This document shows, piece by piece, positions 4,373-7,223 of a DNA stretch of 64,000 bases. The stretch is from positions 124,001 to 188,000 of the forward strand of contig NZ_JAGHQU010000005.1 in assembly GCF_017744135.1 (NCBI RefSeq), given 5' to 3'. Source of the stretch: Endozoicomonas sp. G2_2 (GTDB taxonomy: Bacteria; Pseudomonadota; Gammaproteobacteria; Nevskiales; Salinisphaeraceae). The notes beneath the pieces were generated by a model. The model made no database searches. It was not told where the DNA came from and worked only from the letters and a program-made list of their open reading frames with translations. Position numbers and translations under genes: made by a program. Within the stretch, counting starts at the first letter, position 1; each line of letters starts with the position of its first letter.

Positions 4373-5332
4373 ATGAACGAGTTTCTGGCCCCCGACCTGG
4401 ACGGCGCGGATGTTGCCGATCGTGTCGAGGCCAACGGCCTTGAGCTGGCCTACGAGCAGTTCGGGCGCGATGATCACCCGGCGCTCATCCTCATCATGGG
4501 GTTGGGCACGCAGCTCACCGGCTGGCCCGATGCCTTCTGTCGCGCGCTCGCGGATACGGGTCTGCGCGTGCTGCGCTTCGACAATCGCGATATCGGCCTG
4601 TCGACCAAGTTCGACCGCGGCGCGCGCTATGACGGCGCCCGCAAGGCCTTCGTCAAGTCGCTGCTGGGCCGGCGTATCCGCACCGCGTACACGCTGGACG
4701 ATATGGTCGCCGACACCATCGGTCTGATGGATGGCCTCGGTATCGACAGGGCGCATCTGGTCGGTGCGTCCATGGGTGGCATGATCGCCCAGCTCGTGAC
4801 CGCCCAGTATCCCGAACGCGTCGCCACGCTGACCTCGATCATGTCCACCTCGGGGGCGCGGGGCCTGCCGCGCGGGCGCATGAAGGTGCTGATGCGACTC
4901 GGCAAGGCGCCGAAACGCAATGACCCGGATATCGTGGCCCGCCACATGGCGCGCACCATGCGCATGATCGGCAGCCCGGAATACGGCCGTAGCCTCGAAG
5001 ACTGGACCAGCGAGATCCGGCGCAACGTCAAGCGCAGCTATTACCCCGCGGGTACCCAGCGCCAGATGCTCGCGGTGATGGCCGCGCCCTCGCGCGTGGC
5101 CATGCTCGGCGAGATCACCCATCCGGCGCTGGTGATTCATGGCAAGGCCGATCCGCTGCTGCCGGTCGCGCATGGTCGCGACACCGCCCGCAGCCTGCCG
5201 AACGCGCAATACGAGGAGATCGACGGCATGGGCCACGACCTGCCGCCGCGCCTGCTGCCGCGATTCGTGGCTTTGATCTCGGCGTTGGCCCACGGCGATC
5301 CGGCGCGCCCGGCCGGCGAGCCGTATATCTAG
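4373..5332 (+). CDS. Alpha/beta-hydrolase fold protein
   Basis: 319 residues, start preceded by a GAGGAA ribosome binding site. The nucleophile elbow GASMGG places the catalytic serine at about residue 133. The acid is probably the Asp in HGKADPLLP and the histidine is in MGHDLPP near the C-terminus. FDNRDIGLST after the first strands is common in esterases and proline-iminopeptidase-like hydrolases. The substrate cannot be assigned. The stop codon shares a CTAG with the stop of the convergent radical SAM gene. Confidence 0.85.
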   Translation: MNEFLAPDLDGADVADRVEANGLELAYEQFGRDDHPALILIMGLGTQLTGWPDAFCRALADTGLRVLRFDNRDIGLSTKFDRGARYDGARKAFVKSLLGRRIRTAYTLDDMVADTIGLMDGLGIDRAHLVGASMGGMIAQLVTAQYPERVATLTSIMSTSGARGLPRGRMKVLMRLGKAPKRNDPDIVARHMARTMRMIGSPEYGRSLEDWTSEIRRNVKRSYYPAGTQRQMLAVMAAPSRVAMLGEITHPALVIHGKADPLLPVAHGRDTARSLPNAQYEEIDGMGHDLPPRLLPRFVALISALAHGDPARPAGEPYI

Positions 5333-6420
5333 CCGAAATCCAGGCTCTGCTGGTCGCCGGTGGCCGGCGGACAGCGAAACCGGCTGCTGTCCAGCGGCAA
5401 GCGTCGGCGTGCACCGATACCGGCGCGCTTGCAGGCCAGTTCGAAGCGCCGTGCGAGCAACTGTGCATGAACGCCGCTGCCGCGCATGCGCGTGCCCCAG
5501 CGGGAATCGTAGTCGCGTCCGCCGTGCATCTGCTGGATCAGGCTCATGACATGATCCGCGCGCTGCGGGTAGTGGGTATCCAGCCATTCGCGGAACAGGC
5601 CGCTGATGCTGTGCGGCAGGCGCAACAACACATAGCCCGCAGTGGCCGCCCCGGCAGCGGCGGATTTTTCCACCAGCGACTCCAGCTCGTGGTCGGTGAT
5701 CGCCGGGATGACCGGCGCGACCAGCACGCCGACCGGCACGCCAGCGTCGGCCAGCGCCGTGATCGCGCGCAGACGTTGCTGCGGCCCGGCCGCGCGCGGC
5801 TCGAGCGTGCGTTTGATGCCGGCATCGAGGCTGGTCATGCTCACCATCACGCTGACCAGACCGCGCTCGGCCATCGCCGCCAGGCGGTCGATGTCGCGCG
5901 TGATCAGCGCCCCCTTGGTGATGATCGACAGCGGCTGGTTGGAGCGATCGGCCACGGCGAGCAGATCACGGGTGACGCCGAGCTGGCGCTCGTCCGGCTG
6001 GTAGGGGTCGGTATTCGCGCCGAGCGTGATGGGTTCGCAGCGGTAGCCGGGCGCGCGTAGTTCGGCCTCGAAGCGCGCCGCGGCATCGGGCTTGTAGTAG
6101 ATCTCGGTTTCGAAATCGAGGCCGGCCGAATGATCCAGGTACTCATGCGTCGGCCGCGCGAAACAGTAGATACAGCCGTGGCTGCAGCCCTTGTAGGGGT
6201 TGATCGAGGCGTTGAAGGGCACGTCCGGCGAGTTGTTGCGGCTGATGACGCGCCGCGCCGGGTCGGCGTGCAGCTGTGTGGCCGGACGCACCGGCGTGTC
6301 TTCTGCATCGTCCGCGCCGCCCCAGCCGTCATCGAAGTCCACGGCATGGGCCGCCGAAAAACGCGACGCACGATTACTGAGCGCGCCGCGGCTCTTGTGA
6401 TGGGTTGGGATATGGCGCAT
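5329..6420 (-). CDS. PA0069-family radical SAM protein
   Basis: About 363 residues from the ATG at 6418-6420. The radical SAM cluster motif CSHGCIYC (CX3CX2C) is at about 79-86, preceded by INPYKG, and the N-terminus carries the family signature SRGALSN. YCFARPTHEYLD and GANTDPYQPDE are typical of the spore-photoproduct-lyase-like PA0069/SplB group. The longer open frame upstream has no better start and lacks family similarity. A perfect LexA-type operator lies 7 bases upstream of the ATG, so induction by DNA damage is likely. PA0069 of Pseudomonas aeruginosa is, from recall, also in the LexA regulon. The reaction catalysed is unknown; a DNA-damage role is an inference. Confidence 0.88.
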   Translation of the reverse strand: MRHIPTHHKSRGALSNRASRFSAAHAVDFDDGWGGADDAEDTPVRPATQLHADPARRVISRNNSPDVPFNASINPYKGCSHGCIYCFARPTHEYLDHSAGLDFETEIYYKPDAAARFEAELRAPGYRCEPITLGANTDPYQPDERQLGVTRDLLAVADRSNQPLSIITKGALITRDIDRLAAMAERGLVSVMVSMTSLDAGIKRTLEPRAAGPQQRLRAITALADAGVPVGVLVAPVIPAITDHELESLVEKSAAAGAATAGYVLLRLPHSISGLFREWLDTHYPQRADHVMSLIQQMHGGRDYDSRWGTRMRGSGVHAQLLARRFELACKRAGIGARRRLPLDSSRFRCPPATGDQQSLDFG

Positions 6421-6424
6421 CCGG

Positions 6425-6446
6425 AAACTGTATAAACGAACAGTTT
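6425..6446 (-). promoter_or_regulatory. LexA operator (SOS box) for the PA0069-type gene
   Basis: Two 7-base arms, AAACTGT and ACAGTTT, are perfectly inverted around 8 bases, matching the gammaproteobacterial SOS consensus CTGT-N8-ACAG exactly. On the minus strand the same stretch contains TATACA, a plausible -10 element. LexA binding would therefore block the promoter directly. The distance to the ATG implies a leaderless or very short 5' leader. Confidence 0.85.
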
Positions 6447-6464
6447 TGAGCGCAAGATGCGCGG

Positions 6465-7223
6465 TCAGGGGGTGATGGTCTTGCCCGCCCAGTCGAAGAT
6501 CTGGCCGCTGTCCTCTGGCGTCAGTGTCGACAGCACGTCGAGCAGGTGGCGCGCGGCGGTGTCGCGCGATTGCAGCTGCTTGTCCGGCACGTTGCGCTGG
6601 AAGGGTTCGGACAGCCCGGTATCGACCGTGCCGGGGTGCAGGCCCACGCAGATCAGCTGTTTCGAGCGCCGGCGCAGCTCGATCGAGGCCGTGCGCGTGA
6701 ACTGGTTCTGTGCGGCCTTGCTGGCACGGTAGGCATACCAGCCGCCGAGCCCGTTGTCCGATATCGAGCCCACGCGCGCCGACAGGCTGGCGATCACGGC
6801 GCGCTCGCCGTGGCACAGCAGGTCGTGAAAATGCTTGATCATCAGCAGCGGGCCGCTTGCGTTCACGGCAAAGGCGCGGGCGAGGTGTGCCGGCTCGACA
6901 TCGGCCAGTTTCTTCTCGGGCCACATGCCCTGATCGTCGTGGAGCAGGCCGCCGCAGGTGATCATCAGATCGAGCCGCGCGGTGAGCGCGCCGATGCGTG
7001 ACCGGGCCGCGGCGATGCTGTCTTCGTCGGCGAGATCGAGCGCCACGACCTGTAGCCGTTCGTCGCCATGTTCCTGCGCGAGACGCGCCAGTGTCGAGGC
7101 CTGCTCGGGGTCGCGCACGCTGGTGATGACGCGGGCCCGTTCGTCGTCAGCCAGCAGCCGTTCGACGAACGCCAGGCCCAGCCCGCGGCCGCCACCCTGT
7201 ATGAAGTAGTGTCGGGTCGGCAT
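6465..7223 (-). CDS. Short-chain dehydrogenase/reductase (C-factor/CsgA-like)
   Basis: About 252 residues from the ATG at 7223; the open frame continues upstream without homology. The cofactor motif is GGGRGLG at 10-16, a variant of TGxxxGxG. The catalytic Tyr and Lys lie in YRASK at about 163-167. The NAG-type motif is replaced by TCGGLL. The overall pattern fits the C-signal/C-factor-like SDR subgroup; the substrate is unknown. It is transcribed divergently from the diguanylate cyclase. Confidence 0.82.
   Translation of the reverse strand: MPTRHYFIQGGGRGLGLAFVERLLADDERARVITSVRDPEQASTLARLAQEHGDERLQVVALDLADEDSIAAARSRIGALTARLDLMITCGGLLHDDQGMWPEKKLADVEPAHLARAFAVNASGPLLMIKHFHDLLCHGERAVIASLSARVGSISDNGLGGWYAYRASKAAQNQFTRTASIELRRRSKQLICVGLHPGTVDTGLSEPFQRNVPDKQLQSRDTAARHLLDVLSTLTPEDSGQIFDWAGKTITP

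Follow-up and report, generated by a model that had tools for sequence, protein, structure and literature searches.

A predicted LexA operator overlying the promoter of a radical SAM gene of the PA0069 family, and a probable place for the enzyme in the DNA-damage response

The locus and its SOS box

The window (the whole 64-kb stretch of DNA that was analysed) harbours on its minus strand a gene for a radical SAM protein of the PA0069 family, preceded by a gene for an SDR-family oxidoreductase, and the gap of 44 bp between the two genes holds a predicted SOS box. The features, in the direction of transcription, are as follows.

6465..7223, minus strand: SDR-family oxidoreductase gene, 44 bp upstream of the radical SAM gene and a possible source of read-through
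6450..6455, minus strand: −35-like element TTGCGC, 17 nt before TACAGT, with its TTG at a fixed distance in 13 of 13 genus members
6425..6446, minus strand: predicted LexA operator (SOS box), AAACTGT-N8-ACAGTTT, two 7-base arms in perfect inverted repeat with 8 bases between them
6443-6428, minus strand: CTGT-N8-ACAG core, CTGTTCGTTTATACAG, perfect in 13 of 13 genus carriers
6427..6432, minus strand: −10-like element TACAGT, which overlaps the SOS box, stands six bases before the ATG and is present in 13 of 13 genus loci
6418..6420, minus strand: start codon ATG, also the predicted (inferred) transcription start of a leaderless mRNA
5329..6420, minus strand: PA0069-family radical SAM gene, 363 aa, with the cluster motif CSHGCIYC (NF033668, 472.1 bits against a cut-off of 360; PF04055)

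The encoded protein, scoring above the curated cut-off with an intact CxxxCxxC, has the same cluster motif as the PA0069 family (NF033668) and no family-level difference from it; the model is of the hypothetical equivalog type. The next best model, that of the Rv2578c family (NF038135), gave 226 bits, so far below that family's cut-off of 430 that it points to a sister family and not to membership. Rv2578c is LexA-regulated, and PA0069 belongs to the LexA regulon of P. aeruginosa; our literature search returned no confirmation of LexA regulation for Rv2578c, and the literature found naming PA0069 makes no mention of LexA. The ATG at 6420 is the only in-frame ATG, GTG or TTG between the box and a conserved RG segment, and on sequence grounds is the only plausible start of the radical SAM gene.

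The SOS box reads AAACTGTATAAACGAACAGTTT in the window, and seven bases (TTTCCGG) separate its core from the ATG, the extended arm being four bases away. The first-pass annotation had described a perfect SOS box with AAA/TTT arms seven bases from the ATG, and the sequence at 6425-6446 bears this out. The exact core occurs once in the 64-kb window; at least one copy appeared in 27 of 100 shuffled windows (mean 0.31), and the whole genome has 10 such sites against 17 for a reversed control pattern. A match to the core is thus not rare by itself, and the evidence lies in its position and conservation. The site has the properties of a gamma/beta-type operator, namely a CTGT-N8-ACAG core with A/T-rich flanks, placed before a start codon and conserved in orthologues (all genus carriers, and 13 perfect boxes among 111 loci of the class).

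The genome encodes LexA (201.4 bits, cut-off 110.95), with a recognition helix that we take to be as expected, judged against the E. coli helix. Four of the 10 exact sites have A/T-rich cores, and these lie before a Y-family polymerase gene, a TIGR03916 gene, an imuA gene and the PA0069-family gene. The polymerase matches Pol IV models with every score under the cut-off, and the imuA gene scores 151.6 bits (cut-off 150), with ORFs downstream that resemble imuB and dnaE2 by eye. The TIGR03916 (UDG-linked radical SAM) gene scores 550 bits (cut-off 343.5) and is followed by an ORF that looks UDG-type by eye. It likewise encodes an uncharacterised radical SAM protein, and its perfect box (G000:C11:273996-274011) ends two bases before the ATG; in one relative (G279) a similar TIGR03916-like gene has its box one base before the start. 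In the remaining six exact sites the core is more mixed or G+C-rich, and by eye these sites fall in or across ORFs, two of them (L007 and L009) also shortly before an ORF. Before lexA stands a degenerate box, CTGGATATTCTTACAA, with 6 of 8 letters and one base from the ATG. No close box precedes recA, where the only site (7/8) is 295 nt upstream. A second RecA is encoded at G000:C14:15750-16703 (469.6 bits), with no SOS box of at least 7/8 close upstream.

Conservation within the genus and between classes

The PA0069-family gene was found over cut-off in 13 of 14 genomes of the genus, and every carrier has a perfect CTGT-N8-ACAG followed by an ATG after 7 or 8 nt. In the alignment of these upstream regions the invariant columns are the TTG, the box with the T that follows it, and the coding start, and the sequence outside the box and promoter elements has mostly diverged.

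In an even sample of the class, the family was over cut-off in 117 of 369 genomes. Three partial matches (G085, G062, G366) and one gene with a stop (G314) were dropped beforehand, 111 loci including our own were analysed, and two further loci were read separately, of which one (L243) has a 7/8 site, CTGGATATCCATACAG, before the start and the other (L244) has none. A perfect box is present in 13 of the 111, always 234-269 nt before the cluster motif and so just before the start, and nowhere else in 293,710 bases of these loci. Three more loci (L039, L082, L115) were taken by eye as likely 7/8 boxes for the tree, and L051, with a 7/8 site at the right distance, was left out of the count. The boxed loci so defined (13 perfect and three 7/8 by eye) fall into 10 families, and their distribution needs nine changes on the tree, at least three of them forced by starred branches. 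This leaves 95 of 111 loci (94 if L051 is counted) without a counted box. Absence of LexA does not account for them: in 80 of the 112 other class genomes with loci, a LexA-family match over cut-off was found in all 16 boxed genomes and in 55 of 64 unboxed ones (60 of 64 at E <= 0.001, some matching the protease half only). LexA control of the family is therefore not universal. At two loci of one family (L091 and L098, in G155:C8 and G266:C4) an ATG on the opposite strand lies six bases past the box, perhaps an operator shared by divergent starts.

The named loci are the 80 that most resemble the query alignment, and are therefore not an even sample. GTTC-N7-GTTC is the alphaproteobacterial LexA motif. 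Among these 80 it lies in the upstream zone of 32 of 35 alphaproteobacterial loci, with one match elsewhere in 199,392 bases, and the three other loci have 7/8 letters each. CTGT-N8-ACAG lies in the same zone of 19 of 35 gamma- and betaproteobacterial loci, with one match elsewhere in 193,673 bases. Neither set has the motif of the other class in its upstream zone (0/35 and 0/35); outside the zone the gamma/beta loci contain seven matches to the alpha motif and the alpha loci a single match to the gamma motif, and in the class sample the alpha motif occurs once in the upstream zone and seven times elsewhere. Ten of the 80 carry neither class label, and of these three have the gamma motif, four the alpha motif and three neither. 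One record titled Mycobacterium sp. KBS0706 (L153) joins an alphaproteobacterial-type LexA box to a PA0069-family gene; this record may be misnamed or contaminated. Within the best 80, all nine Pseudomonas loci have a perfect box (none is titled P. aeruginosa), and the seven Lysobacterales and three Nevskiales loci have none. The Xanthomonas-type box is TTA-N6-TACTA, and it was found before none of the 111 class and 35 gamma/beta loci in which it was sought. The consensus of 35 perfect gamma-type boxes (13 from the class sample, 22 named) is LexA-like at positions that the search left free, TACTGTATAT...ATACAGTATT.

The motif switches with the class while the target gene stays the same, a pattern for which there is hardly any explanation other than selection for control by DNA damage. 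The first-pass annotation had called the site an SOS (LexA) site and had put forward a search for CTGT-N8-ACAG upstream of homologues, which was positive in 13 of 13 genus carriers, 13 of 111 class loci and 19 of 35 named gamma/beta loci. The reading as a LexA site is strongly supported by this footprint in the genus, by the change of motif in Alphaproteobacteria and by the like boxes before imuA, the TIGR03916 gene and the Y-family polymerase gene, and LexA control of the PA0069-family gene is, on this sequence evidence, very likely. A functionless palindrome placed before the gene by accident would fit the unremarkable frequency of the core in shuffled windows and genome, but it is very improbable and is contradicted by conservation, since all 13 carriers hold the box 7-8 nt from the ATG, matches are absent elsewhere in the class loci and the motif follows the class.

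Promoter design and the predicted leaderless transcript

Our alignment suggests that the operator covers the promoter itself. All 13 genus loci have the arrangement TTG-N20-TACAGT-N6..8-ATG. A looser form, TTG-N19..21-TANNNT-N5..8-ATG, has a single match in the whole window, the site itself, and 13 matches in 105,318 strand-bases of genus loci, equal to the number of sites. TTGCGC is a weak match to the sigma-70 consensus and TACAGT only a partial match to that of the −10; a stricter consensus scan predicted no promoter at the site, and a search for a terminator there found none. The first-pass annotation had proposed TATACA as a −10 overlapping the box. That hexamer is indeed present (6434-6429), but its first T is found in only three of 13 genus members, and TACAGT, invariant across all 13, takes its place.

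With the −10 inside the box, transcription is predicted to start on or beside the ATG. We consider it most likely, from these sequence features, that the start falls within 0-2 bases of the ATG and yields a leaderless mRNA; the near-leaderless transcript suggested earlier for this gene gains support from the invariant promoter-to-ATG spacing, the start itself being a prediction. A −10-like hexamer, if only a partial consensus match, stands 6-7 nt before the ATG, and no Shine-Dalgarno-like motif intervenes. Among the 35 perfect boxes the first in-frame ATG follows within 1-10 nt in 13 loci and farther away in 19, and three have none. A Shine-Dalgarno-like motif is absent from all 13 short-spaced loci, which is weak evidence because just six of the 19 leadered loci with an ATG have one. 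Other SOS-type genes of the genus are spaced alike: the distance from box to ATG is 1 nt for lexA in three of three species looked at, 2 nt for imuA-like genes in three of three species and 1-2 nt for the TIGR03916-like gene in the two found, with the genes of the relatives named by eye. Leaderless SOS transcripts have a precedent in M. tuberculosis lexA, for which PMC2897130 reports transcription and translation starting at the same base. The evidence there is experimental; here the start is a prediction that concerns several SOS genes of a gammaproteobacterium.

The true transcript might instead start upstream and carry an ordinary leader, the box blocking only elongation or a weak internal promoter. 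The lack of a consensus sigma-70 promoter at the site and the same-strand SDR gene 44 bp upstream speak for such a start. So does a genome-wide scan of 12 genomes for TATAAT-N5..8-ATG against N12..15, where strict TATAAT makes a blunt test: three genomes of the genus gave 24 matches against 17 (18 in the reversed control), so that a general excess of leaderless starts in the genus was not clear, and we dropped the idea of one. We nevertheless judge an upstream start to be unlikely. First, the promoter arrangement is kept in all 13 loci, and its loose form is found in the genus loci as often as there are sites. Second, the upstream neighbour differs between the two genus relatives compared: one locus (L112) has a same-strand SDR-like ORF, and another (L109) is without one and keeps the box. 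Lastly, lexA shows similar spacing in each of the three species looked at.

A leaderless mRNA would, we propose, leave read-through from the upstream SDR gene poorly translated. Leadered loci show another feature. In 10 of 22 leadered loci the box is flanked by an inverted repeat (p < 0.05 compared with shuffled flanks, uncorrected for many tests). One short-spaced locus out of 13, that of the window, has such a repeat, and so does one of 26 lexA boxes, which a slightly looser box pattern had picked out in a scan of 33 lexA loci. Among the ten, three Pseudomonas sites are almost identical, which leaves about eight distinct repeats of differing sequence. At three Pseudomonas loci (L145, L149, L155) the SOS box forms the apex of a 15+15 inverted repeat that ends in a T run, so that operator and terminator-like hairpin coincide. 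Predicted folds of the read-through RNA range from -20 to -42 kcal/mol in eight examples, and folds from the box end onwards from -3 to -8; the lengths are unequal and the comparison is illustrative only. In the window itself a hairpin over the start codon (GCGCATCT / GGATGCGC) was matched in 0 of 500 shuffles, but it is not common to the genus, where only two of 13 loci, the window included, have one at p < 0.05, and we put no weight on it.

Leaderless and hairpin designs may both keep read-through transcripts silent. We tentatively extend this to a possible rule for PA0069-type genes, by which protein would be made only from the LexA-controlled transcript. In some lineages, this genus included, the mRNA would be leaderless, the start codon serving as transcription start beside the operator. 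In others the operator would form the apex of an inverted repeat. In read-through RNA this repeat would fold, masking the ribosome site or terminating transcription, whereas a transcript begun at the operator would contain only half of it. The same tentative proposal holds the enzyme to be of a second radical SAM DNA-lesion type, different from spore photoproduct lyase and possibly harmful to undamaged cells.

Fold, missing cysteine and proposed role of the enzyme

The predicted structure has a pLDDT of 83.5, with residues 1-42 poor. Ranks 1-6 of a Foldseek search of the PDB are all spore photoproduct lyase, which is also the best fold match of the model (Z 19.1, 3.2 Å over 260 residues; next family 15.2). 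The enzyme and spore photoproduct lyase (PDB 4fhc and relatives) thus have in common the fold, over about 260 residues, and the CxxxCxxC motif. In contrast, identity is about 15%, the catalytic cysteine is lacking, and Pfam SPL (PF20903) matches neither the protein, where PF04055 is the only match, nor any other in its own genome; across the phylum it is over cut-off in five of 299 genomes. In a low-confidence profile alignment with three Pfam SPL-matched proteins, anchored on T-D-P and placing the cysteine two before T-D, the position of the lyase's catalytic cysteine (C140, the residue changed in PDB entries titled C140S and C140A) is cysteine in 0 of 191 loci and instead T, A, I, S, V, G, M or Y. 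Spore photoproduct lyase has a Tyr before the third cluster Cys. All 191 loci keep this Tyr, and after the third Cys 115 of them have Phe and the other 76 Tyr. In 116 loci a Cys precedes N-T-D by eight residues, close to the position of the lyase Cys without coinciding with it, and could be an alternative hydrogen donor in some members. The fold without the catalytic cysteine points to a radical SAM enzyme that apparently lacks the known lyase chemistry.

SOS control of related genes has been published for other groups. Earlier work places splB/COG1533 radical SAM genes under SOS control in Alpha- and Betaproteobacteria (PMC3323433) and in Bacteroidetes (PMC8565304), includes a radical SAM protein in the core SOS regulon of Gram-positives (PMC7739468) and describes a paired UDG / COG4277 system as likewise SOS-controlled (PMC8565304). 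PMC3323433 (2012) argues from two divergent LexA motifs, calls the gene a predicted photolyase and states that the trait was not observed in Gammaproteobacteria. We assume that the published splB is the PA0069 family. What is common to that work and ours is a LexA site before a spore photoproduct lyase-like radical SAM gene and the argument from two motifs; the differences are that the trait is present here in Gammaproteobacteria (nine of nine named Pseudomonas loci, 13 of 13 carriers in our genus) and that the catalytic cysteine is absent. SplB-like (COG1533) proteins of other groups have already been reported as SOS-controlled, so the principle is known and the Gammaproteobacteria are an extension of it; as far as our literature search reached, the additions beyond what is known are the missing cysteine and the promoter designs.

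A LexA box directly before the gene, in a wiring that recurs in many bacteria, makes it very probable that the enzyme belongs to the DNA-damage response, and the DNA-damage role proposed for it in the first-pass annotation is supported as regulation by the conserved LexA-type sites. From the operator, its conservation, the family, the predicted fold and the missing cysteine, all read from sequence, we infer LexA binding, induction, the start site and the substrate. With undamaged DNA, LexA would sit on the −10 region and the earliest transcribed positions and so keep the gene off; upon damage, RecA filaments would bring about LexA self-cleavage and so induce it. The [4Fe-4S]/SAM enzyme would then reverse or process a damaged base by a radical route unlike that of spore photoproduct lyase, and by analogy this base most likely belongs to DNA or to the nucleotide pool.

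Two other views of the enzyme bear on this. The gene could be a true member of the SOS regulon whose product acts on something other than DNA (RNA, protein or a cofactor) during damage recovery, as would suit the many substrates of radical SAM enzymes with the same fold (NifB, lipoyl synthase, SkfB and others reach Z 13-15), the absence of the lyase cysteine from all 191 loci and the 95 of 111 class members without a counted box. We regard this as less likely, though it is the most serious of the alternatives, given that a DNA-lesion enzyme is the best fold match by 3.9 Z units and that two classes whose LexA motifs differ have both kept the regulation. Identity of the enzyme as a genuine spore photoproduct lyase (photolyase) would agree with the top six fold hits and with the splB (COG1533) naming in PMC8565304 and PMC3323433; with the catalytic position non-cysteine in 191 of 191 loci and PF20903 unmatched in protein and genome, it is highly unlikely, and the missing cysteine makes the label 'photolyase' unsafe.

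We therefore favour, with considerable confidence, the explanation that a LexA operator lies over the promoter of this PA0069-family gene and that the gene most likely encodes a lesion-type radical SAM enzyme, induced by damage and probably from a leaderless mRNA. A widespread and uncharacterised family would thereby join the DNA-damage response in Gammaproteobacteria, a class for which an earlier survey reported the trait as not observed. With the key cysteine missing, which lesion the enzyme handles becomes directly testable. The promoter design suggests protection from accidental expression, which hints that the enzyme may be costly or harmful when there is no damage.
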